From assembly GCF_017921815.1 (NCBI RefSeq), contig NZ_JAGEMM010000002.1, positions 186,001-250,000 on the forward strand: a stretch of DNA of 64,000 nucleotides, read 5' to 3'. How positions within the stretch are numbered: position 1 is the first letter of the stretch; each line of letters begins with the position of its first letter. The translations under genes were made by a program, and so were the position numbers. The notes below the pieces were generated by a model, which saw only the letters and a program-made list of their open reading frames with translations, was not told the origin of the DNA and did not search any database. This document shows, piece after piece, positions 5,926 to 23,848 of this stretch. This stretch comes from Microvirga antarctica. Its GTDB lineage: Bacteria; Pseudomonadota; Alphaproteobacteria; Rhizobiales; Beijerinckiaceae.

Positions 5926-6604
5926 CACCTTTTCCCAAAAAAGCGGCTGTCTTCGGCGACTTACCGATCCGGGTGAATCGCTTTCAACCCCGGCGACAGA
6001 TGGGCCCGGTGGCCTTGGGCTGAGGGTGTGGGCGGCTTGCGGTTAAAAGTCGTAATGCCGCTCCGTCGCGCGGAACATGACGGCGCGAATGCCCTTGCCG
6101 CGCCTCGGCGACTTGACAGCGATTGCGGATAAATGGCGACATAGGTTGCGAGCTGGATCAGGGACAATGACGAAAAACGCTTCAAATGTCGTGGGATGGC
6201 TTGTCCTGATCAGCGGATTGGCGCTGTTCGCCTGGCTCCTCGCGCCGTATCTGGTGTAGCGGCGGAATGGGCCGCCCGCCATGGCGCGCCACAGCTCGAG
6301 ATCATTGCCTGCGAGGGCGATGATCCGTCTGTTTGCCCGAGGCCGCCAAGGACGAGAGCGCAGGCAGGACCACGAACGCGCGGGTGCTGACCGGTTAGCA
6401 TGACGTCGTTTACCCCTGTCCAGAGACCGCGCAAGTCCGTGGAGGATCGACTGACGTTGCCAGACATTTCGCTTGATCTTCGAGGATCGGGCCCGTATCC
6501 CGACCCACGCGGAGCGCGTTGAAGGCCCTTGTCGCAGCTGTGCTGCGTGGGCGCGTGTCTTGGCCAGACAGATCGCGGCATTCGCGTTGCCCAGGGAGAG
6601 TCGC
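5926..6604. other. Mostly non-coding interval
   Basis: About 680 bases between tRNA-Phe and a small lipoprotein gene. The only reading frame with protein character is a very short membrane peptide listed separately at 6167-6259. Long antisense frames here have the composition of shadows. No repeat or convincing terminator was seen. Confidence 0.5.
6167..6259 (+). CDS. Possible 30-residue single-pass membrane peptide
   Basis: The peptide MTKNASNVVGWLVLISGLAL continues into a hydrophobic segment and ends APYLV, so almost its whole length is one transmembrane helix. A weak purine stretch (GGATCAGGG) precedes the ATG. Such short membrane peptides are common in alphaproteobacteria, but nothing beyond the hydrophobic pattern supports it. 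Confidence 0.3.
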   Translation: MTKNASNVVGWLVLISGLALFAWLLAPYLV

Positions 6605-8352: not shown

Positions 8353-9160
8353 AGTGGGGAACTCGCGGTTTCTTTGTTTTGACGATCGGGCGGGGCATTC
8401 ACTGGTAGACCGGAACCGGTTGATTGCCTCCGCATGGCCGGACGGTGTGGGCGAGGTGGCGGAAATGTGGCGCTCACTCCGTGTAGCGGCGAAGCCACAG
8501 TTTGTGGCGGCCATGTGGCAGTTCAAACCGCGAGGCCGGAACATTGTTCCGGCTGCTGCGCTCACGCTTTCGTGGGCGGGAATTAAGTCAAGGGATGAGT
8601 GGTTGAAGAGGCTGCGCGGCGGGGCAGCGGGGAGTCATCGGACCTGTTCGTGTCCGCTCTGAAAGGGAGGGGCGCACTCGTGCCCAAGCGCTGGACAGCC
8701 GAATAAAGGCCTACCGGGGACGCGACGACTTAAAGGGACGCGATCGTGAAGTTGGCGACTGTGAGGAGAACTGCCAGACCAAAGGCAAGGCCGACCCAGT
8801 CCAAGACCTTGGCCATCCGATCTTCACCGGGACGTCGTCTTACTGAAGTTTCCATTCGCAACTCGCCACCGTAGGTTTTCGTAACGCTGGAGGTTCTATA
8901 CTTGTATAAAGTAAACTTGGCCTTAAGCCAATCATCAGTTGCGGTCGGCCAAATTTATATTTGAAGATGTATATTTTCCTTTAAGGAAGAGAATAATTGT
9001 CGTTGGTGTCATGCGGGTGCGGCGATGGGCCAAGTGGAACAAGCAAACGATCTGAGGAATTGACGGTGCAGGTTTGTTCGCGCCACCGCATTTGCTCTGG
9101 TGTGCGTGCTCACCGCCCCCCTATGATCGACGCTTCCGCCCTCTCGCCCGGCAGTCCCTC
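8353..9160. other. Long intergenic region with one possible small gene
   Basis: About 800 bases between the L,D-transpeptidase and an EEP-family gene. It contains one plausible minus-strand mini-gene (8730-8855) and an A+T-rich stretch around 8885-8990 that is unlike the surrounding sequence and may hold promoters. No repeat or RNA structure could be assigned. Confidence 0.5.
8730..8855 (-). CDS. Possible 41-residue membrane protein
   Basis: The peptide starts METSVRRRPGEDRMAKVLDW and then has one hydrophobic helix (about residues 18-40) up to the stop. A charged N-terminus followed by one helix is a typical small inner-membrane protein pattern. The ribosome binding site is weak; an internal ATG at residue 14 is an alternative. 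No family recognised. Confidence 0.4.
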   Translation of the reverse strand: METSVRRRPGEDRMAKVLDWVGLAFGLAVLLTVANFTIASL

Positions 9161-13952: not shown

Positions 13953-14433
13953 CCGGCCCTCCTGCCTTGCCCTCACCGTGGCCGCATAGCACGACACCCG
14001 CGCAGGCTCTACTCGCCGGCGGGGCGATGGGGGCCAGAAACCCTGGTTCATCGGTGCCCGGAACGATCAGCATTCCGTTGCACAAGCTTATGGCGGACCG
14101 CAAAGCCGCAATCGCGAGGCGAGCAGGCGAGGTTTCGCAACGGTTGGATGGAGACTGCGCGATCCCGCCCGCCGCGCAGGAGGCCGATCCTCGGTCCCGG
14201 TGGCTCATCGTCTATTCACAGTCAAAAGAAGAGACCCGACCTGCGCTGCCAACGCCATACGGCGGACTAAGTATCTCATCAGAATGATTGATTGCCGTAA
14301 ATTCTCCCCGCGAGGCCGCAGAAAAACAGGTCCCGTTCCCTCACTTTCGCGCTTGACGACACCCCCCTGTTCGCGTCTATTGCGCCTCCTGTGCGAAGCG
14401 AGATTTTCCGACGGTATTCTTGTTTTTGCGCCC
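13953..14433. other. Intergenic region before tRNA-Ser
   Basis: About 480 bases without a credible gene. Frames on both strands are short and rich in Arg/Ser/Pro, as expected for non-coding GC-rich DNA. Nothing regulatory could be assigned except the implied tRNA promoter. Confidence 0.5.
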
Positions 14434-14524
14434 GGAGACGTGGCCGAGCGGCTGAAGGCACTCGTTTGCTAAATGAGCATACCCCAAAAAGGTATCGAGG
14501 GTTCGAATCCCTCCGTCTCCGCCA
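14434..14524 (+). tRNA. tRNA-Ser (GCT)
   Basis: A 91-base tRNA with a long variable arm and encoded CCA. Acceptor stem GGAGACG / CGTCTCC, anticodon stem CTCGT / ATGAG around loop TTGCTAA with anticodon GCT, T arm GGTTCGAATCC. The extra arm ACCCCAAAAAGGT is typical of class II tRNA-Ser. Confidence 0.97.
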
Positions 14525-14597
14525 AAAAAATCAATAAAATCATCAACTTAGCTAACACTTGAGGTTAAAGTGTAAATCGAACTGAGATCGCTCCACT

Positions 14598-14822
14598 TCA
14601 AATCAGGCTGAGAGATCGAGCGAACCCGTAAGCTGCGCACATAGCGCCTGCGCACGCACACCACGCGCCGTACGCATTGACCCTGCCGATTCTCTGAAGC
14701 TCGCCGATGAAGGTGTCCAGATTATTCGGAACCGTTATCAGCGAAGCCCACAACCAGAACGCTCCGGCGCCGAACGAAGTGATGACGCCGAGAGCACTTA
14801 CCGTCACATCAAGCTTTGTCAT
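14598..14822 (-). CDS. Small two-helix membrane protein, hypothetical
   Basis: A 74-residue protein with two hydrophobic segments (about residues 10-32 and 50-70) separated by a polar LPxN-like loop and RIGRVNAYGAW. Similar small membrane proteins of unknown function occur in rhizobia, which I recall only in general terms. It lies just downstream of tRNA-Ser on the opposite strand and is not part of an operon. Base composition is lower in GC than the core genes. Confidence 0.55.
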   Translation of the reverse strand: MTKLDVTVSALGVITSFGAGAFWLWASLITVPNNLDTFIGELQRIGRVNAYGAWCACAGAMCAAYGFARSLSLI

Positions 14823-15204
14823 GTAGGTTATTATCAGATCCGCACGCCTGTGCCAGCAATGTTCGCAGCCGGACTATTTCTGTGACCGCATCTCTGGCGA
14901 GGCTATGAACGCGCACTTGTTTCCGCCTCGGGGCTAGTCGAACAAGCGTGGGCGCAAATGGGGGCCGGCTCACACGGCTTTGCCGCTTCAAAGGCGACAA
15001 GGGAGCATACCGCTCAGGCGAAGTGGCATTGTTCAGTCTGCAGCACACGAAGCGGCTGATGATCTCTGAGATGCTGGACAGGTATGGCGGGGTCACCACC
15101 GCCAGTCGTTTGGCGATGTCAGTGGATCAGCGCCGCAGGCGACCGGCCAATCAAGGATATAACGCGGTCGCATGCTTCGGCGTCCGGGACCGCGTCCCGG
15201 GCGA
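14823..15204. other. Interval without a convincing gene
   Basis: About 380 bases between the small membrane protein and the DUF3604 gene. A minus-strand frame of 96 codons (14809-15099) and a plus-strand frame of 114 codons overlap here, but neither has a domain, good start or coherent composition. Confidence 0.4.
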
Positions 15205-17154
15205 TCAATTGGCCGGCGAGTACCAGATCGGCGACGTGTACGCGCGTTCCTGGATCGAGGTTGGCACTTCGGGAGCAAGCTTCACCCCGTAGTACTTGGC
15301 GTCATACGCCGTCCAGCGAGGCGTGGGAATTTCCAAGACACGTCCATAGTAGAATGCCCGTTGTCCGGGATCGAAATCCGGGTCCTTCCACACGGCAATC
15401 AACTCCGGCGATCCGATCGTATTGGTCCAGTTCGCGTTGGCCACATCGACCGAATTTCCAACAGGCGGCAGCTTTCCGTCTGCGCCGGGCTTGCGTTCGC
15501 CGGACCAAGCGACATCGTAGACCTTCTCCTGCATGTCGCCCTTGGCATCGACCCATCCCTTGACGATCTGATAGCGGTCGAGATTGGCGCCGATCGGGTC
15601 TTTCAGCGCCGCGATGAGGAAGGTTGGCACCTTGCCGGCGGGAGCGGCGCCGAGGTCGCCGCCCATGGGCACCCCTTTCGTGTAACCGGACACCGCGGGG
15701 CTGCGGGTCACGGCATCCGCTTCGTCGAAATCAAAGCCGCCGAAGAAGCGCACGAGCATGCGCGAGCCAGTCGTGGCATAGGTCTCGCGGCGCTCCATCG
15801 CGTCAAAGAGAGCCTCGCGCGTATTCTCCGCAGCCCAAACCGCGGCGTAGCCCGACGCCGACGTTTCCCACTCGTATATCGTGCCCTTTTCCCCCTTGAC
15901 GAAGACGCGGCTGCTCCGCTCGGCGCTCGGCTCCATGGCGGAGGTCTTGCCGAAGTAATTGTCTTCCTCGACAGCAGCGAGACCCGTATGGGAATCGGTC
16001 GAGCCGATCATGCCAAATTTATAGGGGTTGACGCCGACTTCTCCTTCCAGCTTCAGACCGAGTTTGAGGGCATTGCGCGCGTATTCGTATTGCAACATGT
16101 CCGGCGTCTTAGATTCGCTGAGATCGAGATTGCCTTTGTCCCACCGTTCGAAATTGGCGAACTCGTCATTGGGAGATAGATAAGGATGGGTCTCGCCATC
16201 CCCCTTGATCTGAGTTGCCTCATACAGGCGCTCCCACTTGATGCGGGCTTCGGCATATTCGCGATCGATCCGCTTGCCCGTCCCGGGTTCCACGATCGGA
16301 AACATGCGCCCATTCGAGAGATTGCCGTTATGCGCAATCGCGAGCACCCGCCCGCCGGTCTTGTCCTCGTAGCCCGCCATCCATTTCCAAAGGTCGCGCG
16401 GGTTGTCGCTGCCGAAGGGAGGCAGAACCGTGTAGGGCAGAACGCGGCTCGCCTTGTCGCCGTTGTCCCGGAAAACCACATTGCGGTGGAGGTTGTTGCC
16501 GCCCGTATTCGACGTCCACTCATAACCAATAAAGGCCGTAAAGCGGCCGGGATCGTTCGCCTGCTCCGCCGCCTTGATGGTTTCCTGCCAGGCCGAGCGA
16601 TAGGCGTTGCTGTCCGGGCCATAGACGAGCGGCTTCGGCAGTTTGCCCTGGGAAAAGGCGACGATGATTTCAACCGCCGCATCTGCCCCTTTCCCCCCGA
16701 CGATCATGTCGTGCCATCGCCTTCCGGTCGGATCGGCCATGAGGTTGGGTTTGCCAGCCAGCAAATCCGGGAAGAACCCCATGTTGTCGGAGTGATCAGC
16801 CACCACGAGGAAGTCGAGAGGCCGGGAGAGTTTTGCTGGCTGTCCCGACGAGGCGGTGACCTGTTCTCCCTTGGCGAGGCGGTAGGCATCGGAAGGCCCG
16901 AGCCGCGCGCCGAACGCGCCTGCATCGAAGGAGAACGACGTGTGAAGGTGGGTGTCACCAAAAAGCGGCCGGGTGGGAAAGTTGCGACCCGCATAGGGAG
17001 AGTAGGCTCGCATCGTCCTAAAGAGCTTCTCGGCGGCGGCCCGGTCCAGAGTTCCGACATCGCTGGCTGCGGTGTCCTGCGCAATGGCGGGAAGGTTGAG
17101 GGCGAGGCTGGCGATGGCGGCCAGCAGCAAACTGTCGATGAGTGATCGTTGCAT
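15205..17154 (-). CDS. DUF3604 domain protein, exported, PHP-like metal site
   Basis: A 649-residue protein with a signal peptide (hydrophobic residues 8-24, cleavage after AIAQ). The DUF3604 fold is marked by LFGDTHLHTSFSFDAGAFG near residues 64-82, with the His-x-His of a PHP-type metallohydrolase, by VVADHSDNMG, by FIGYEWTS and by MIGSTDSHTGL. Its reaction is not established in any characterised member known to me; a periplasmic metal-dependent phosphoesterase or related hydrolase is a reasonable inference. AGGGGA just before the ATG supports the start. It is the third gene of the PPIase-HupE-DUF3604 operon, 18 bases after the previous stop. Confidence 0.9.
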   Translation of the reverse strand: MQRSLIDSLLLAAIASLALNLPAIAQDTAASDVGTLDRAAAEKLFRTMRAYSPYAGRNFPTRPLFGDTHLHTSFSFDAGAFGARLGPSDAYRLAKGEQVTASSGQPAKLSRPLDFLVVADHSDNMGFFPDLLAGKPNLMADPTGRRWHDMIVGGKGADAAVEIIVAFSQGKLPKPLVYGPDSNAYRSAWQETIKAAEQANDPGRFTAFIGYEWTSNTGGNNLHRNVVFRDNGDKASRVLPYTVLPPFGSDNPRDLWKWMAGYEDKTGGRVLAIAHNGNLSNGRMFPIVEPGTGKRIDREYAEARIKWERLYEATQIKGDGETHPYLSPNDEFANFERWDKGNLDLSESKTPDMLQYEYARNALKLGLKLEGEVGVNPYKFGMIGSTDSHTGLAAVEEDNYFGKTSAMEPSAERSSRVFVKGEKGTIYEWETSASGYAAVWAAENTREALFDAMERRETYATTGSRMLVRFFGGFDFDEADAVTRSPAVSGYTKGVPMGGDLGAAPAGKVPTFLIAALKDPIGANLDRYQIVKGWVDAKGDMQEKVYDVAWSGERKPGADGKLPPVGNSVDVANANWTNTIGSPELIAVWKDPDFDPGQRAFYYGRVLEIPTPRWTAYDAKYYGVKLAPEVPTSIQERAYTSPIWYSPAN

Positions 17155-17172
17155 CTCATTCCCCTTCGATTG

Positions 17173-18198
17173 CTAGAATGTGGAAACCCGCTGGATCATC
17201 CAGAACATCGCCAAACTGCCGATGGCATAGGGCGGCGCCAACGCTGCCCAGCGCGGCAGGGGCAGTCGGAGACGTCGAAGAAGCGTCCACGAGGCCAGTA
17301 CTGCTGCGACGAACAGCAGTTGGCCTGCCTCGACGCCGAGATTGAAGAACAAAAGCGCCAGCGGGATGTGCCCTTCAGGAATCCCGATTTCGCTCAACGC
17401 GCCCGCGAAGCCAAAGCCGTGCAGAAGCCCGAATGCAAACGCCACGACCCAAGGAAAGCGAGCGGCAATGCCGATGTGGCCCTGTCGTGCACGGATGATC
17501 TCCAGCGCGACAAACGCAATCGACAGGGCGATCATCGCCTCCACGGGTCGTGGCGGAACATGAACCACGCCCAAGACAGCCGCCGCCAGCGTGATGCTGT
17601 GTGCGGCGGTGAAGGCCGTGATCGCCATCACAAGCCGCCGCGTGCTGGAGGAAAGCAGAATGAGGCCGAGCACGAACACCAGATGGTCGTATCCCAGAAG
17701 GATATGTTCGATCCCAAGCCACAGGTAGGTCGCGGCAACGCCGGAGCTGCTCTGCTCGGCCGGAATCGTGGCCCGCGGCACGGCGGGTGTCAGGCGCTGA
17801 ACGAAGGATCGTCCATCGGCGAACGCGACGCGGAGAAGCGCGTCCGAAACGGTATTTTGCAGCCCGACGATGTTCACATCCTCGCCGCCAAGCCCGTTCT
17901 GAGCATGCACCCGCCAAGTCTGAACCATGGCGCCGTCCGTCGTGCGAGAAAGGACCGGCGTTTCGGCTTTGACCTGGTCGGAGAATTCGACGCTCAGTGC
18001 CAGTCGCCGATCACCGATCATCGGGGTCTTGAAGAGCACGTCGAAAGAGCCGGCAGCCTTCTCGGTTATCTCAAGATAGGCCGGCCTGACTTCGTGCGCC
18101 AAAGCTGCCGACGTCGCCAATGCAATGACGCCACCGACGAAAGCCGTGAGCGTCAAAACACGCACCGCAAGTCGCCAGAGCGGCCCGGCGACCTTCAT
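17173..18198 (-). CDS. HupE/UreJ-like membrane protein
   Basis: A 341-residue protein: signal peptide ending in SAALAHE, a soluble N-terminal domain of about 120 residues rich in beta strands, and a C-terminal half of six or so helices with HupE/UreJ-type histidine motifs (GIEHILLGYDHLVFVLGL, AAHSITLAAA, GLLHGFGFAGAL). HupE and UreJ proteins are nickel or other metal permeases; members with a large periplasmic domain like this one are not well characterised. It overlaps the upstream PPIase gene by four bases and is 18 bases from DUF3604, so the three are translated together. Confidence 0.88.
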   Translation of the reverse strand: MKVAGPLWRLAVRVLTLTAFVGGVIALATSAALAHEVRPAYLEITEKAAGSFDVLFKTPMIGDRRLALSVEFSDQVKAETPVLSRTTDGAMVQTWRVHAQNGLGGEDVNIVGLQNTVSDALLRVAFADGRSFVQRLTPAVPRATIPAEQSSSGVAATYLWLGIEHILLGYDHLVFVLGLILLSSSTRRLVMAITAFTAAHSITLAAAVLGVVHVPPRPVEAMIALSIAFVALEIIRARQGHIGIAARFPWVVAFAFGLLHGFGFAGALSEIGIPEGHIPLALLFFNLGVEAGQLLFVAAVLASWTLLRRLRLPLPRWAALAPPYAIGSLAMFWMIQRVSTF

Positions 18199-19067
18199 CG
18201 TATCGCCTGTCTTTTCGGTTCCTGCTCAAGAAGCGGCTTTGCGTCCGGGTCGACAACCACGCCATACTTGTTCCGCAGGTTCGCGAGGAACGCCTCGTTC
18301 GTCTCGTTGGCTTTCCATCTGCGCCAGTCGTCCATGACCGTCTTGCGGACATCCTCGAACCGATGCGGCTCGCCTTGCTCCCTCCGGAGCACCAGCACAA
18401 GATGTGCGCCGTAGCCCGATTTGACAGGGCCACTCCATGAACCCGGCTTCAGCGCGAACACCGTCCGCGCAAAGTCGGGGCCGAACAGGCTTGAAACCGT
18501 CTGAAGGTCAACTCCGGCGTATTCATCCTCAAGCGGCAGCGGGTCGCCTTCGGGAGGCCTCGCGTCCCCGTTCGCCGCAATGAGCGACAGCGCTGCGCCA
18601 GCCTCCGCAGACGGGTTCGGGCGCTGGCCGGGGCTAAAGAAAATGTGCCTGAACGACACCTGTGCTTCCGTCCTGTGGTGCTCTGCACGGGTGGCGAAGA
18701 AACGCCGAAGTTCATCCTCACTGGGATCCGCAATGCTGGTGGTGTCCTCGATGAGGAAGGTGAGCTTCTGCGCCAGCCGGCGTCGCACGATCGTGTCGTT
18801 CTGGTCGAGGCCAAGCGCCCGGGCTTCGCGGGCAAGCAGTTCTTCGTTGACGAGCGTTGCCATGAGATCGGTCAACTCACTGCTCGTGGGCTCCCGACGC
18901 CACTGACTTGCAAAGGTCTCCCGCAGCCAACGCACCTCTCCCGGACCAATTCTGACAGACGCCTCGGGCATCGCGTTCTGGCTGCCGCGCGACCACCATT
19001 CTTGGACGCCGAACAGGAGGGCGCCCGCAATCACGAAATGAAAAAGCGGCTCGCGGATCAGTTTCAC
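18195..19067 (-). CDS. Membrane-anchored PpiC/parvulin-like peptidyl-prolyl isomerase
   Basis: A 290-residue protein with one N-terminal membrane anchor (about residues 8-22), a SurA/PpiC-like helical region (TSSELTDLMATLVNEELLAREA) and a diverged parvulin domain (about 125-235, including VSFRHIFFSPG and FALKPGSWSGPVKSGYGAHLVLVL). Parvulin proteins assist folding of exported proteins in the periplasm. It is the first gene of the three-gene unit and may fold the DUF3604 or HupE-like partner; that is inference. The stop overlaps the next start by four bases. Confidence 0.85.
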   Translation of the reverse strand: MKLIREPLFHFVIAGALLFGVQEWWSRGSQNAMPEASVRIGPGEVRWLRETFASQWRREPTSSELTDLMATLVNEELLAREARALGLDQNDTIVRRRLAQKLTFLIEDTTSIADPSEDELRRFFATRAEHHRTEAQVSFRHIFFSPGQRPNPSAEAGAALSLIAANGDARPPEGDPLPLEDEYAGVDLQTVSSLFGPDFARTVFALKPGSWSGPVKSGYGAHLVLVLRREQGEPHRFEDVRKTVMDDWRRWKANETNEAFLANLRNKYGVVVDPDAKPLLEQEPKRQAIR

Positions 19068-19449
19068 GGCAGGCCTCTGCCGTCATGGGCGACGGCACAG
19101 CTAATCTGCCTGCCGATCGCTTCACTGGCAAGAAGGTCGCCGACGAAATCGCCGCAGAACTTTCGCCGGGCTTACGCCGGCCAGCAGGAGACGCGGCGAG
19201 CAGAGCGCCCAACCGAGGCGCAAGCACACAGACACCGCGCTCTGTCGATGTTGCGGTCTCCAGCGACGCGGTCGCAGCGCCTCACCCATCCTCTCCGATC
19301 GACGAGTCCCGCCCAGACTTCCTGATCACGCACACCGACCCACGCATCAGGCCCTGGCTTTCGACAGAGCAGAAACCTCGCTGATCCTTGCGACAGACTT
19401 GCTCCGGATTTGAAATGCTATTACGTGTATTGTCTGTGTGGGGGCAATC
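19068..19449. other. Divergent promoter region
   Basis: About 380 bases between the start of the PPIase operon (minus strand) and the BRCT-protein gene (plus strand). It must hold both promoters, but no clear -35/-10 pair or operator could be picked out. Frames through it are shadows. Confidence 0.5.
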
Positions 19450-20055
19450 ATGAGTAGCGAATTTTACAACAAAGTCGGTGGCGACCGCATCTCGTCGCGC
19501 CAGATGGATGAATTGATCGGCGTGGCACGAGGCTTGGCGGCAGACAACAAAATCAATCAGGAAGAGGTCGAGTTTCTCCAGAAGTGGCTTGCTGCAAACA
19601 TTCATATCAGCGATCAACCGCTGATCCGGACTCTCTACCAGCGCGTCAATGATATTCTTGCGGATGGCCTTGCAGACGAGGTCGAGCGGGCTGAGTTGCT
19701 TGACACGCTCAATAGGTTTTCGAGCCGAGACTTTGAACTCGGAGAAATCCTCAAGGCGACAACTCTCCCGCTTTGCGACCCAGCGCCAGTCCTCTCATTT
19801 GCAAATAAGCGATTTTGTTTCACAGGGACGTTCGGCTACGGGCAACGCAAACACTGTGAGCAAGCGGTGACGAGCCGCGGGAGCATTGCCGGTCCGCTGA
19901 ACCAGACGATCAACTACCTCGTCATCGGGGTTTATGCGACAGAGTCGTGGAAGCACTCTTCGTTCGGCCACAAGATCTTGAAGGCCGCGGAATGGCGGGC
20001 GAGGGGCGTGCCTGTTGCCATCGTCTCGGAGGAGCACTGGACGCGGCATCTTTGA
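19450..20055 (+). CDS. TerB-like + BRCT domain protein
   Basis: A 201-residue protein. The C-terminal half (about residues 115-198) is a BRCT domain like that at the end of NAD-dependent DNA ligase: KRFCFTGTFGYGQRKHCEQA, TINYLVIG, GHKILKAAEW and the closing VAIVSEEHW. The N-terminal 100 residues are helical with an acidic pattern (GLAADNKINQEEVEFLQKWL) like TerB or other tellurite-type modules. No ligase, nuclease or polymerase domain is present, so it probably binds DNA ends or a partner protein. GGGG five bases before the ATG fits a binding site. Base composition is visibly lower in GC than neighbours, which suggests transfer. Confidence 0.8.
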   Translation: MSSEFYNKVGGDRISSRQMDELIGVARGLAADNKINQEEVEFLQKWLAANIHISDQPLIRTLYQRVNDILADGLADEVERAELLDTLNRFSSRDFELGEILKATTLPLCDPAPVLSFANKRFCFTGTFGYGQRKHCEQAVTSRGSIAGPLNQTINYLVIGVYATESWKHSSFGHKILKAAEWRARGVPVAIVSEEHWTRHL

Positions 20056-20174
20056 AGCCACGGGCTGTTCAACGACAGCCACTCAGTGCCGTCCATCACC
20101 GGACCTCTCGTGTCGGACAGACCATCGCAGCATTATCCTGTGCGCCGCCGCATGACCGCACCGCCACTCGAATC

Positions 20175-21185
20175 TCAAAACGTCAGAACGATCTTTCCGA
20201 AATGCCGGCCGCGCTCCAGCGCCAGAAGGGCGTCGCCAAGCGCTGTCCACGGGTAGATTGAATCGACGACGGGCTTCAGGTGATTGAACGCAATCGCCCG
20301 GTTCATATCCTCGAAGGATTGCCGCGATCCGACCGAGATGCCGCGCACGCGCGCCCGTTTGCGGAAGATCAGCAGCGGGTCGACCGTACCCTGCTGTCCG
20401 CCCAGATAGCCGATGGCGCTGATCTGGCCGGCGAGGCGGAGCGACAGCAGGGATTGGGTGAAGGTCTGCGCCCCTCCGACCTCGATCACATGATCCACGC
20501 CACGTCCGCCGGTGAACGTCAGGACGCTGGCAGACCATTCCGGCTCGCGCCGATAATTGATGAAGCACGACGCGCCAAGGGCGATGGCCTTTTCGCCTTT
20601 CTCGTCGCTGCCTGAGAGGACAATCGCCCGCGCGCCGAACATGACGGCGAACTGCAACGCGAAAATCGCCACGCCACCTGTTCCCTGGACGAGCACATCG
20701 TCTCCGGCCTTCAACCCGCCCTCGGTGACGAGCGCATGCCAGGCGGTGACGGCCGCACAGGGAAGCGTTGCGGCTTCTTCGTCGGTCAGGTGATCCGGTA
20801 CGCGCACGACGCCGTCCTGATCGAGCGCGACAAACTCCGCGAGCACGCCCTGGAGCGCGCCGCCGAGTTGACGTGAGGGATCCGCGAGATCCGCCGGTCC
20901 GCCCAGCCAGCCCTGCCAGAATGTTCCGCACACCCTGTCGCCGACGCGCACGCGCGTGACGTCGGCACCCGCGGCGACAACGATTCCGACGCAGTCGGAT
21001 AGCGGCACGAGGGGGAGTGGAAACGCGCGGCTGAAGATCCCCGTGACGATTTCGTAATCGCGATAATTGATCGACGCAGCCTTGACCTGAATGATCACCT
21101 GATGGGGAAGCGGGCTGGGCGTTTCGCGCTCCACCACATGCAGATGGCCGAGACTCCGTCCGCCGTCGAGAACCATCGCTTGCAT
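20175..21185 (-). CDS. Medium-chain dehydrogenase/reductase, zinc-type alcohol dehydrogenase family
   Basis: A 336-residue MDR protein. It has the GroES-like start (QAMVLDGG, INYRDYEIVTG), the LPLVPLSDCVGIVVAAG segment, GDRVCGTFWQGW and a Rossmann domain with VLVQGTGGVAIFALQ. The catalytic cysteine of classical zinc ADHs (…G.CGTDLH) is replaced by NYRDYE, so it is more like the zinc-free quinone-oxidoreductase branch. It is the last gene of the minus-strand operon that begins at 29085, only 11 bases after the citryl-CoA-lyase-like gene, and may oxidise or reduce an aldehyde, ketone or enoyl intermediate of that pathway. Confidence 0.85.
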   Translation of the reverse strand: MQAMVLDGGRSLGHLHVVERETPSPLPHQVIIQVKAASINYRDYEIVTGIFSRAFPLPLVPLSDCVGIVVAAGADVTRVRVGDRVCGTFWQGWLGGPADLADPSRQLGGALQGVLAEFVALDQDGVVRVPDHLTDEEAATLPCAAVTAWHALVTEGGLKAGDDVLVQGTGGVAIFALQFAVMFGARAIVLSGSDEKGEKAIALGASCFINYRREPEWSASVLTFTGGRGVDHVIEVGGAQTFTQSLLSLRLAGQISAIGYLGGQQGTVDPLLIFRKRARVRGISVGSRQSFEDMNRAIAFNHLKPVVDSIYPWTALGDALLALERGRHFGKIVLTF

Positions 21186-22038: not shown

Positions 22039-22950
22039 TCAGATCTGTCGGGCTTGGCGGGCGAAAGTGTCAGCCAATGTTCCGGCGGTCATGATGTCGA
22101 CGGCCGGATGCGACTGTGCGTGCTCAAGGACTTCGCGAAGATAGCGGATCCGATGCGCCGTTCCGAAGACCCAAGGATGAACGCCAATGGCGAGCGCACG
22201 AGCGCTGTCCGCTGGCGCCCCGGCAAGCCCTTCGATCGCGTCGGCGACGAGACCTGGAAAGCGCTCGGCCGAGACCCTGCGAAGCGCGAGCGTTTGCACG
22301 TCGTCCCACTCGCTGGGGGCAGGGAGCGCGATCAGACCCGGCGCGTCGAGCTGCAGATAAGGCTGCTCGTCGTTCGCCCAATCCATCGTGTAGGAAAAGC
22401 CGGCCTCGCGCAGCAATGCGGAGGTGCGCGGCGTGTTGCCGAAATCCTGCGACAGCCAGCCGCGCGGCTGAACACCAAAGGCGCTCTGAAGGGCGTCGCG
22501 TGACTGCAGAATGTGATCGCGCTCCACCTCTGCGCTCATATGGCTGGTGATCATCCGGTTGGCGGTCAGGCCATGCGCCGCAATCTCGTAGCCGCGCGAC
22601 GCGATCGCGCCAACGATCTCCGGATGCGCCTCGATCGCGCCCGCCCCGATGGCAGCCGTCACCGGCACGGCGAGGTCGTCGAGAACCTCGAGCACCCGGT
22701 AGAGCCCGACGCGGTTGCCGTACTGGCGGTAGGACCAGGTTCGGTAATCGGGCGTGAACGTCCCGAACTCGCCTTTGAAGCGCGGCTCGCGATAGGCCCC
22801 GTCTGGCGTGAACAGCTCGTAATGCTCGATCTGCAGAACGATGTAGAGAGCAATCGGCTTGCCGCTCGCCAGCCTGAACGGCGCCCGGTCCGGCACCGCC
22901 GAGTAAGGATAGATCGCATGGTCCATGCCGGGGCGACGTGCTGTCGGCAT
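22039..22950 (-). CDS. Polysaccharide deacetylase-fold protein, PuuE-like (first of pair)
   Basis: A 303-residue NodB/polysaccharide-deacetylase fold protein without signal peptide, hence cytosolic. It has QIEHYELF instead of the usual Asp-Asp metal motif, YGNRVGLYRVLEVLDDL, AAHGLTANRMITSHMSAEVE and PRGWLSQDFGNTP. This pattern is that of the allantoinase PuuE group, members of which open cyclic ureide or imide rings rather than deacetylating glycans. AGGAGACG before the ATG supports the start. It lies one base after the stop of its paralogue. Confidence 0.85.
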   Translation of the reverse strand: MPTARRPGMDHAIYPYSAVPDRAPFRLASGKPIALYIVLQIEHYELFTPDGAYREPRFKGEFGTFTPDYRTWSYRQYGNRVGLYRVLEVLDDLAVPVTAAIGAGAIEAHPEIVGAIASRGYEIAAHGLTANRMITSHMSAEVERDHILQSRDALQSAFGVQPRGWLSQDFGNTPRTSALLREAGFSYTMDWANDEQPYLQLDAPGLIALPAPSEWDDVQTLALRRVSAERFPGLVADAIEGLAGAPADSARALAIGVHPWVFGTAHRIRYLREVLEHAQSHPAVDIMTAGTLADTFARQARQI

Positions 22951-22951
22951 C

Positions 22952-23848
22952 TCACGTCTCCTGCGGCGAAGAAGCCGCAGCGGTTTGCGACAGGTACCAG
23001 TCGGCGATCTCTTCTCCCGTCGCCATCCATACCCGGTCATGCGAGCGGATATGGGAAAGCGCCCTGTCGAGATATTTCAGCCGGTGCGGACGGCCCATGA
23101 TGTAGGGATGAACGGCGAGGTTCATGATCCGCGGATGCACCGCACCCTCGCGGTAGAGCGTATCGAACATATCACGCGCCATGCGCTCGAATTCCGGTCC
23201 TTCACCCGCTCCGGCGTAGATGACCGAGTCGTTGAGGTCCATCTGATAGGGCAGGCTGAGCAGCCTGCCGCGACGCACGCTGATGGGCGTCGGCTGATCG
23301 TCATGATAGAAGTCGCAATAGTATTTGATGCCGGCTTCGGCCACGAGATCAGGCGTGTTGAGCGTGTGGGAGGCTGCGGGCGAGAACCATCCGGCAAGCT
23401 GCCGCCCGGTCAGACGGCGGTAGGTCTCGACGCAGTCGGCGATCATCGCGCGCTCTTCGTCTTCCTCGTAACCCCAGAGATATTGCGTGTTGTAGATGCC
23501 GTGGCACATGTAGTCCCAGCCACGGCGCTCACAAGCCTCGAAGATCGCTGGATAATGTTCGAAATTGGCGAGGTTGAGTGAGACGGTGCAGCGAATGTCG
23601 TGGGCATCCATGACCTCGAACATCCGCCAGAGTCCGACACGATTGCCGTAATCCTTGGTGGCGTATCCCAGCACATCGGGATGGGGCGTACGCGGCCATG
23701 GATCGCGCACACGGACGGGGTCCGGCAGATATTCGTAATGCTCGATATTGGGACAGACCCACACGGCGATCTGTGCATCGTTGGGCCAGCGGAAACGCTC
23801 GCGCGAAACGATCGGGCCGCCAAGAAAACGAGCAGGGTCAGTCAGCAT
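22952..23848 (-). CDS. Polysaccharide deacetylase-fold protein, PuuE-like (second of pair)
   Basis: A 298-residue cytosolic paralogue of the next gene. Shared blocks are NIEHYEYLPDP, YGNRVGLWRMFEVMDAHDI, MCHGIYNTQYLWGYEEDEERAMI, AGWFSPAASHTLNTPDLVAEAGI and CDFYHDDQPTPI. PuuE-type ring-opening amidohydrolase activity is the best guess. Two adjacent paralogues suggest either a hetero-oligomer or two successive hydrolytic steps. Its start overlaps the livF-like stop by 11 bases. Confidence 0.87.
   Translation of the reverse strand: MLTDPARFLGGPIVSRERFRWPNDAQIAVWVCPNIEHYEYLPDPVRVRDPWPRTPHPDVLGYATKDYGNRVGLWRMFEVMDAHDIRCTVSLNLANFEHYPAIFEACERRGWDYMCHGIYNTQYLWGYEEDEERAMIADCVETYRRLTGRQLAGWFSPAASHTLNTPDLVAEAGIKYYCDFYHDDQPTPISVRRGRLLSLPYQMDLNDSVIYAGAGEGPEFERMARDMFDTLYREGAVHPRIMNLAVHPYIMGRPHRLKYLDRALSHIRSHDRVWMATGEEIADWYLSQTAAASSPQET

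Follow-up and report, generated by a model that had tools for sequence, protein, structure and literature searches.

Some HupE/UreJ-2 membrane proteins, termed 'anglerases', are reported to bear a periplasmic domain with an N-terminal histidine, and for one of these, Ang-1, a dissociation constant (Kd) of ~74 nM for copper and ~220 nM for nickel, a proposed role in capturing metal ions for uptake, and a gene neighbourhood with DUF4198, Indigoidine_A and PfkB have been described (PMC12537917, Nat Commun 2025). Here we describe an operon of Microvirga antarctica in which a protein of this type is encoded between a PpiC-type parvulin-domain protein and a member of family DUF3604, the three genes being referred to below as the trio; it lies in a window of 64,000 nucleotides, which is the whole stretch of DNA that was analysed. 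The words DUF3604 and isomerase are absent from the main text of PMC12537917, and our literature search found 'anglerase' in no other paper, no paper describing the trio, and, among the papers listed, none joining HupE/UreJ with a peptidyl-prolyl isomerase in the sense meant here. In the literature searched, DUF3604 appears as one table entry for a Chlamydia trachomatis transposon mutant, and searches with PF12228 and spelling variants returned no further papers.

Like Ang-1, the HupE protein of the window has a predicted signal peptide, a predicted N-terminal histidine, a beta-sandwich ectodomain and a PF13795 membrane domain; unlike Ang-1, the trio HupEs form a separate clade, residue 1 is sometimes an aspartate, and their partners are PpiC and DUF3604, in contrast to the DUF4198, Indigoidine_A and PfkB neighbours of the Ang-1-like clade. 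The modelled ectodomain also resembles in fold the zinc-binding proteins ZrgA and PA4063, but ZrgA is a binding protein of an ATP-binding cassette (ABC) transporter system (PMC9820375), whereas the trio version is fused to a HupE permease. The modelled PHP fold of DUF3604 resembles those of the PHP-like metal-dependent phosphoesterases BVU_3505 (3e38), likewise a two-domain protein, and TM0559 (2anu), although DUF3604 gave no match in a sequence search of Protein Data Bank (PDB) chains. The CehA/McbA metallohydrolases are PHP-type enzymes too; we rejected an assignment to them, as the window protein has no match to their curated model (NF038032) at E 0.01. A PpiC-domain helper dedicated to one metalloprotein, as we propose for the trio, has a parallel in NifM, with the differences that the client of NifM is cytoplasmic and that there is no permease. 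Maturation of NifH is reported to depend on NifM, a PpiC-domain protein, in some diazotrophs (PMC12691677).

We consider it an even call that the trio is one functional unit, in which PpiC and HupE are an accessory module that folds and metallates an exported PHP enzyme. Gene order, co-occurrence, predicted folds, ligand conservation and clade structure are the computed part of this explanation.

Organization of the trio

The trio occupies 15205-19067 on the minus strand, in the order PpiC, HupE, DUF3604; the HupE start overlaps the PpiC stop by 4 bases and the gap between HupE and DUF3604 is 18 bases. Open reading frames (ORFs) and Pfam matches bear out the tight three-gene operon described in an earlier account of this DNA made without database searches (the sequence-only reading). 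Signal peptides and the PpiC anchor listed here were read from the sequence and are predictions; model confidence is the predicted local distance difference test (pLDDT).

18195..19067, minus strand: PpiC-type parvulin-domain protein, 290 amino acids, GTG start, with a predicted periplasmic part after the N-terminal anchor (ORF; PF13145, Rotamase_2, 51.9 bits; alignment A3)
18990..19046, minus strand: predicted hydrophobic membrane anchor of PpiC, residues ~8-26, with P7 and F11 invariant (read from sequence)
17173..18198, minus strand: HupE/UreJ_2 protein, 341 amino acids, with predicted periplasmic beta-sandwich ectodomain (PF13795; model pLDDT 91)
18097..18198, minus strand: predicted HupE signal peptide, residues 1-34, His35 being mature residue 1 (sequence; alignment column)
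17752..18096, minus strand: ZrgA/PA4063/Ang-1-like ectodomain of HupE, residues 35-149, beginning at the predicted N-terminal His (structure comparison)
17176..17751, minus strand: HupE membrane domain with invariant H165, D171, H172, H200 and H260 (alignment, model)
15205..17154, minus strand: DUF3604 protein, 649 amino acids, PHP superfamily, predicted exported (PF12228, 823 bits; model pLDDT 89)
17080..17154, minus strand: residues 1-25 of DUF3604, a predicted signal peptide of Sec type (read from sequence)
15760..16986, minus strand: predicted PHP domain of DUF3604, ~residues 57-465 (matches to 3e38 and 2anu; ligand columns)
15208..15759, minus strand: predicted C-terminal beta-rich domain of DUF3604, ~residues 466-649 (secondary structure of the model; structural matches weak)

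The HupE match to PF13795 (HupE_UreJ_2) scores 165.8 bits at residues 158-309, with a weak Pfam match to PF04955, and NCBIfam has no family for either the window HupE or the window DUF3604. The host assembly (4.5 Mb, 220 contigs) contains a single DUF3604 match.

DUF3604, PpiC and HupE occur together

Co-occurrence was counted in 398 genomes of the phylum and 149 genomes of the host's own family; scoring was limited to the top 3 to 16 candidates in each genome, so that copy numbers are lower bounds. Genes at the loci were found by a homology-guided pass. The in-house hidden Markov models and alignment A3 derive from some of the loci to which they were then applied, and it is the named-genome and own-family sets that serve as independent tests. 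DUF3604 matches are present in 29 of the 398 phylum genomes, comprising 24 with strong full-length matches (>650 bits), one with a divergent full-length match (G122), and four with fragments or weak matches (G031, G130, G162 and G243); HupE_UreJ_2 matches are present in 118, of which 96 are above the family cut-off. All 24 strong DUF3604 genomes contain a PpiC-HupE pair, which in 22 lies no more than ~3 kb from DUF3604. The PpiC profile gave 30 matches in 26 genomes at 277 bits or more, with the next score at 82 bits, and these 26 are the 24 strong DUF3604 genomes together with G162, in which the pair has a broken DUF3604 fragment nearby, and G348. The phylum genomes are thus divided into 24 with both families, one with DUF3604 only, two with PpiC only and 371 with neither (Fisher p 4e-35).

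In the host's own family 14 genomes have DUF3604 matches, of which six are strong and all accompanied by PpiC, and eight are weak (<30 bits) and never accompanied by it; counting strong matches, six genomes have both, none DUF3604 only, two PpiC only and 141 neither (Fisher p 2e-9). The two with PpiC only, G506 and G554, carry a divergent PpiC, and neither DUF3604 nor PpiC reached its cut-off in any of the five congeners sampled. The sequence-only reading had the trio recurring in other bacteria and proposed that co-occurrence be counted; the recurrence holds, with PpiC beside HupE in 24 of the 25 full-length-DUF3604 genomes among the 398 searched, and the trio is not rare.

Neighbourhoods were fetched around 36 DUF3604 genes and around 40 HupE genes away from DUF3604, the latter a subset of such genes. 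PpiC is present in only three of the 40 (L090, L094 and L099), two of which are in genomes that have DUF3604 elsewhere (G301 and G262), and the other 37 are without it. Over the 24 genomes we counted 36 strong DUF3604 and 28 PpiC copies, both lower bounds, as scoring was confined to the top 3 or 6 candidates in each genome. PpiC copies exceed DUF3604 copies in none of these genomes; in six of them (G075, G127, G174, G220, G262 and G321) they are outnumbered, with a ratio of 1 to 3 in G174 and G321, which fits the pair as a shared accessory.

A further set of named-genome loci comprises the best 80 of 575 DUF3604 relatives, which are the top-scoring ones and not a random sample, and many are from metagenome bins whose names are perhaps wrong. 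The full trio is present at 38 of these loci and only PpiC at a further four; flanks are short at 24, and DUF3604 is solitary at 14 (L107 and L170 repeat sampled genomes, and are included in the 80 and the 38 but excluded from the 70 HupEs and the distance comparison described below). The full trio is missing at 42 loci; 40 genomes, which account for 41 of these loci, were searched, and the PpiC subfamily is present in 31 of the 40; four of the 31 had PpiC already at the locus, and when they are set aside PpiC is found elsewhere in 27 of 36 genomes, against a background of 26 in 398 (p 8e-21), the nine misses all being metagenome bins. Among the searched genomes with a full-flank solitary DUF3604, PpiC is elsewhere in 12 of 13. 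In the five genomes with the weakest matches, the ones in which HupE was checked, PpiC and HupE are adjacent in each. This near-obligate presence of PpiC with DUF3604, even in trans, together with the copy asymmetry, favours the view that the pair serves the enzyme rather than the reverse.

The trio is also found outside the Pseudomonadota in isolates, namely Haloferula rosea (L116), Xanthomarina spongicola (L168) and Microseira wollei (L162). DUF3604 matches occur in 79 plasmid records, 61 of them from Rhizobium or Sinorhizobium, and the trio is present at all four of the plasmid loci that were opened; this distribution is the pattern of a mobile unit. Distance matrices for 66 loci are correlated for all three protein pairs (DUF3604-HupE 0.51, DUF3604-PpiC 0.41, HupE-PpiC 0.65), with a permutation maximum of 0.24. 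One locus (L065 7716-8702, in G031) has a single frame consisting of a DUF3604 start and a HupE end, apparently a deletion remnant of the operon.

The DUF3604 protein

An AlphaFold model of the DUF3604 protein (m6e76bc5d42e7, pLDDT 89) aligns with 3e38 at Z 15.6 (230 residues aligned, root-mean-square deviation [rmsd] 3.4) and with 2anu at Z 15.2 (216 aligned, rmsd 3.7), well above unrelated rows at Z 4.2 or below, so that the model has the fold of the PHP superfamily. Nine residues, H69, H71, D77, H121, E212, H223, H275, D387 and H389, do not vary among 36 aligned DUF3604 sequences, and are identical wherever aligned in 132 copies, two of which are gapped at H69/H71/D77 and one at H121. They follow the PHP ligand pattern HxH, D, H, E, H, H, DxH and we take them to be metal ligands; H69 and H71 are the HxH motif to which the sequence-only reading had drawn attention. 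Searching solved structures by sequence gave nothing useful, whether the query was DUF3604, HupE, either of the profiles A1 and A2, or the second PHP protein described below.

The signal region of the protein has a predicted Sec-type cleavage site between AIA and Q, and a lipobox-like motif is present in this region in 21 of 136 DUF3604 copies. Signals of Sec type imply that folding and metal uptake would take place outside of the cytoplasm. DUF3604 is predicted to be a Sec-exported metallohydrolase of the PHP superfamily, which agrees with the sequence-only reading of an exported protein and with the periplasmic location on which that reading depended.

The HupE permease and its ectodomain

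The HupE model (m0c38f85dff46, pLDDT 91) consists of a beta-sandwich at residues 40-144 followed by seven long helices. Its ectodomain aligns with ZrgA (8ezw; Z 10.1, 100 aligned, rmsd 2.6), with PA4063 (7aly; Z 9.8, 103 aligned, rmsd 3.3) and with the crystal structure of Ang-1 (9gce; Z 8.2, 99 aligned, rmsd 2.6), the last match being only modestly clear, as unrelated Ig-like receptor domains start at Z 7.2 and the comparison tool cautions that a Z below 8 may reflect a common arrangement. The top VIA-align row for HupE (7vcf, Z 10.5) covers the membrane part only, and with Foldseek alone only ZrgA chains are below E 0.001. HupE is a candidate membrane metal permease with conserved His/Asp motifs, and the metal-binding-type fold of the ectodomain together with the invariant membrane histidines lends substance to the metal-permease-like protein with a large periplasmic domain of the sequence-only reading.

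Cleavage of a Sec-type signal is predicted after an AxA motif, and would leave HEVRPAYL as the mature N terminus. In an alignment of 70 trio-type HupEs (those scoring at least 250 bits, which excludes shorter or divergent ones such as L065, L120 and L191-L193), predicted mature residue 1 is a histidine in 53 and an aspartate in 17, and nothing else. The window HupE has both the PF13795 membrane domain and the 9gce-type N-terminal ectodomain that characterize Ang-1 proteins, although the trio clade departs from the rule of a histidine right after the signal peptide in all members. When mapped on the membrane-domain tree, the His/Asp trait requires eight changes, at least two of them forced by well-supported branches.

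In a tree of 74 HupEs, the 34 chosen trio HupEs form one side of a branch with SH-aLRT support of 99.6, with 37 HupEs lacking PpiC and three divergent PpiC-linked HupEs on the other. This tree was built without the published Ang-1 sequence, and the trio HupEs fall outside the clade that has DUF4198, Indigoidine_A and PfkB neighbours. The latter clade is drawn as the neighbour of the trio HupEs with a support of only 14, and we do not claim a sister relationship.

The PpiC protein

The N terminus of PpiC is predicted to be anchored, and the segment W-x-GP-x-x-S-x-x-G-x-H-x-V is conserved (alignment A3). At the columns that we presume to hold the parvulin catalytic residues, the second histidine (H222) is present in all 30 proteins compared, and the first is a histidine in 13 and a glutamine in 17. 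Its role may be one of chaperoning more than of isomerization.

A second exported PHP family

In G506 and G554, which are of the same genus and belong to the host's own family, the divergent PpiC is part of a PpiC-HupE pair that lies divergently beside a gene for an exported PHP-like protein of 665-696 amino acids. This second PHP protein contains the motifs GDMHNHNTC, GLEW, PTHTER and SSDWH and has no Pfam match; members of the family are 46-86% identical, one ends in a His/Glu-rich tail, and that of locus L204 has a partial match to NF038032 (CehA/McbA) of 28 bits against a cut-off of 80. A relative is encoded on a Comamonadaceae plasmid (CP099604.1; L216 2061-13723), in a run of NikR, a TonB receptor, two small genes, the PHP protein, a spermidine-synthase-like protein, PpiC, HupE, a 2-oxoglutarate (2OG)-Fe(II) oxygenase and PCu(A)C, possibly a cluster for a metallophore or for metal uptake. 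All three loci share relatives of the PHP, spermidine-synthase-like, 2OG, PpiC and HupE proteins. The second family is rare, and no close members of it were found in 396 further genomes. Two lineages, though few, repeat the PpiC-HupE pairing with another exported PHP family, and a nickel regulator is added. A broader proposal, which we hold tentatively and as rather doubtful, is that exported PHP enzymes in general receive their metal in the periplasm from PpiC and an Ang-type HupE, a co-encoded foldase and permease that would insert it only once Sec export is complete; there would be at least two client families, and His and Asp would be swapped according to the metal.

Still more divergent PpiC-HupE pairs, with a predicted N-terminal His, are present at three loci:

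L191 7426-13892: divergent PpiC-HupE pair
L192 8135-10221: divergent PpiC-HupE pair
L193 7678-9644: divergent PpiC-HupE pair

The L191 pair adjoins a PepSY_TM protein and a TonB receptor, and the L192 pair adjoins an alkyl sulfatase with a metallo-beta-lactamase fold. Near another divergent pair, L213 encodes small exported proteins with a GHHPHH stretch (5955-6362 and 8507-8983).

Such pairs without a recognized PHP gene are what would be expected of a metal-acquisition operon, in which HupE imports metal, PpiC is its folding partner, and DUF3604 hydrolyses an outside substrate, whether a metal chelate, a metallophore or an organic ester, making the metal or product available for uptake. TonB receptor genes that immediately precede PpiC in the same orientation at L051 and L167, as well as that in the NikR cluster of L216, point the same way, as does the distance correlation, which is highest for HupE and PpiC (0.65, against 0.51 and 0.41 for these with DUF3604). 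HupE-type proteins are moreover established as nickel/cobalt permeases, and metal capture has been proposed for Ang-1 (PMC12537917). However, DUF3604 is multiplied where the pair is not, it nearly always accompanies the PpiC subfamily, 37 of the 40 fetched HupE loci away from DUF3604 also lack PpiC, and metal-responsive sites upstream are not clearly enriched; we therefore judge metal acquisition by the trio to be unlikely, while still giving it some weight as the main rival explanation.

Proposed function of the trio

As a Sec-exported protein, DUF3604 would fold and acquire its metal ions outside of the cytoplasm. We picture PpiC as a membrane-anchored foldase that would have DUF3604 as its client, and HupE as a putative membrane metal permease whose periplasmic domain would offer an N-terminal His (or Asp) as a metal ligand, such that the two together would keep or place the right transition metal in the exported PHP enzyme at the membrane face. 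That HupE handles DUF3604's own metal, and the direction in which it would transport, we infer. An exported enzyme with several metal ions would need both a foldase and a metal permease that bears a metal-binding ectodomain, and periplasmic maturation is therefore our first choice. As to the metal, the candidate with the best hints is nickel, to which NikR and the additional HupE genes described below may point; the data on Ang-1 and the presence of PCu(A)C may point to copper, and ZrgA and PA4063 to zinc.

Several observations weigh against periplasmic maturation by the pair. HupE-type permeases are thought to carry metal into the cytoplasm, which is not an obvious way of loading a periplasmic enzyme. 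An aspartate at residue 1 in 17 of the 70 HupEs speaks against one fixed Cu/Ni site, and a glutamine in place of the first parvulin histidine in 17 of the 30 PpiCs makes isomerase activity doubtful. G348 has a PpiC-HupE pair without DUF3604, G122 has a divergent full-length DUF3604 without the PpiC subfamily, and the 14 solitary DUF3604 genes among the 80 named loci have at least 4 kb of flank on each side. In the ten genomes that the DUF3604 model matches weakly, with best scores of 25-29 bits (G130, G243 and the eight in the host's own family), PpiC is absent, which limits the linkage to the main family. Distant relatives of the second PHP family are present in eight genomes, none of them among the 26 PpiC genomes, so that exported PHP proteins generally can do without the module; the pairs of L191-L193, for their part, have neither DUF3604 nor a recognized PHP gene alongside. 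None of seven regulator-box patterns is clearly enriched upstream of 74 operons. Finally, metal transfer, an interaction between PpiC and DUF3604, and enzyme activity are themselves inferred.

Metal acquisition by Sec-exported metalloenzymes in the periplasm is poorly understood, and the trio offers a testable case. It is compact and widely transferred, and ties the uncharacterized metalloenzyme family DUF3604 tightly to a foldase and a metal permease, which offers a clue to the function of DUF3604 and gives anglerase-like permeases a defined partner enzyme.

Regulatory sites

Matches to consensus patterns for Zur, PhoB, NikR, Fur, Mur, CueR and a Ni/Co-type repeat were sought around the approximate starts of the 74 operons and compared with 10 block shuffles. 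Fur boxes are the highest, at 9 of 74 operons against a shuffle mean of 4.1 and a maximum of 9. PhoB-type boxes are present at 12 operons, fewer than the shuffled mean of 25.7, and no phosphate-uptake genes were recognized among the recurrent neighbour families scanned. Both of these speak against DUF3604 being a phosphoesterase induced on phosphate limitation, an explanation suggested by the annotation of its nearest folds as PHP-like metal-dependent phosphoesterases, and one that we regard as very improbable. The roles that the sequence-only reading had offered for the operon part company here: supply of metal to the hydrolase is the option that we favour and fits the copy numbers and the second PHP family, release of a metal by the hydrolase keeps some probability, and freeing of phosphate finds no support in the PhoB boxes. 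At the window locus, a search of 14000-20500 with Rfam for a riboswitch gave only a tRNA.

Neighbouring genes

Neighbour families were assigned from one scanned representative each. Classical HupE genes (PF04955) are by the trio in seven loci (L041, L057, L140, L173, L181, L183 and L190), those of L041 and L173 being assigned by clustering only and that of L057 barely at the cut-off. Sulfatase genes (PF00884) are on the same strand and no more than 350 bp from a trio member in L044, L054, L122, L151, L158, L164 and L168, a sulfatase-family fragment is near the trio of L171, and other recurrent nearby families are DUF1254/DUF1214, a DUF900 hydrolase and an amidohydrolase. These neighbours, and the presence of DUF3604 on plasmids, could reflect a catabolic cassette for organic compounds, with DUF3604 as an exported esterase, sulfatase-like enzyme or phosphatase, and PpiC and HupE as generic envelope helpers kept by co-transfer; the seven sulfatase loci come without a control rate for sulfatases. 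The flanks vary while the trio is constant, however, and generic helpers would not be expected to be one clade tied in trans to one enzyme family, and we find such a cassette improbable.

Inside the trio operons of L109, L114, L115, L119, L138 and L173 there is a gene, also present in L206 (9012-9635), for an exported protein without a Pfam match that has a conserved Cys-Gly near its predicted mature start (alignment A4). A different HupE operon, with DUF4331 and a TPR-like protein, is found at L089, L091, L100-L104 and L106, and these loci also contain an ECF sigma/anti-sigma pair.

A genomic island at the tRNA-Ser gene (14434-14524) was considered for the window trio and rejected: the window contains no second copy of the tRNA end, base composition has no jump inside the trio, and a search for two flanking genes in five congeners gave no clean empty site. 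The scanned genes flanking the window trio encode a GDSL lipase, a GST, a glycosyltransferase, an L-PSP/RidA protein, a zinc-type alcohol dehydrogenase, a citrate synthase domain, polysaccharide deacetylases and branched-chain transport, and none of these suggests a metal system. Upstream of the operon is a divergent gene of 205 amino acids without a Pfam match (19438-20055), present in one of five congeners. Two adjoining, partly overlapping genes with polysaccharide-deacetylase domains (22039-23848) lie near a gene for a branched-chain-type ABC transporter.

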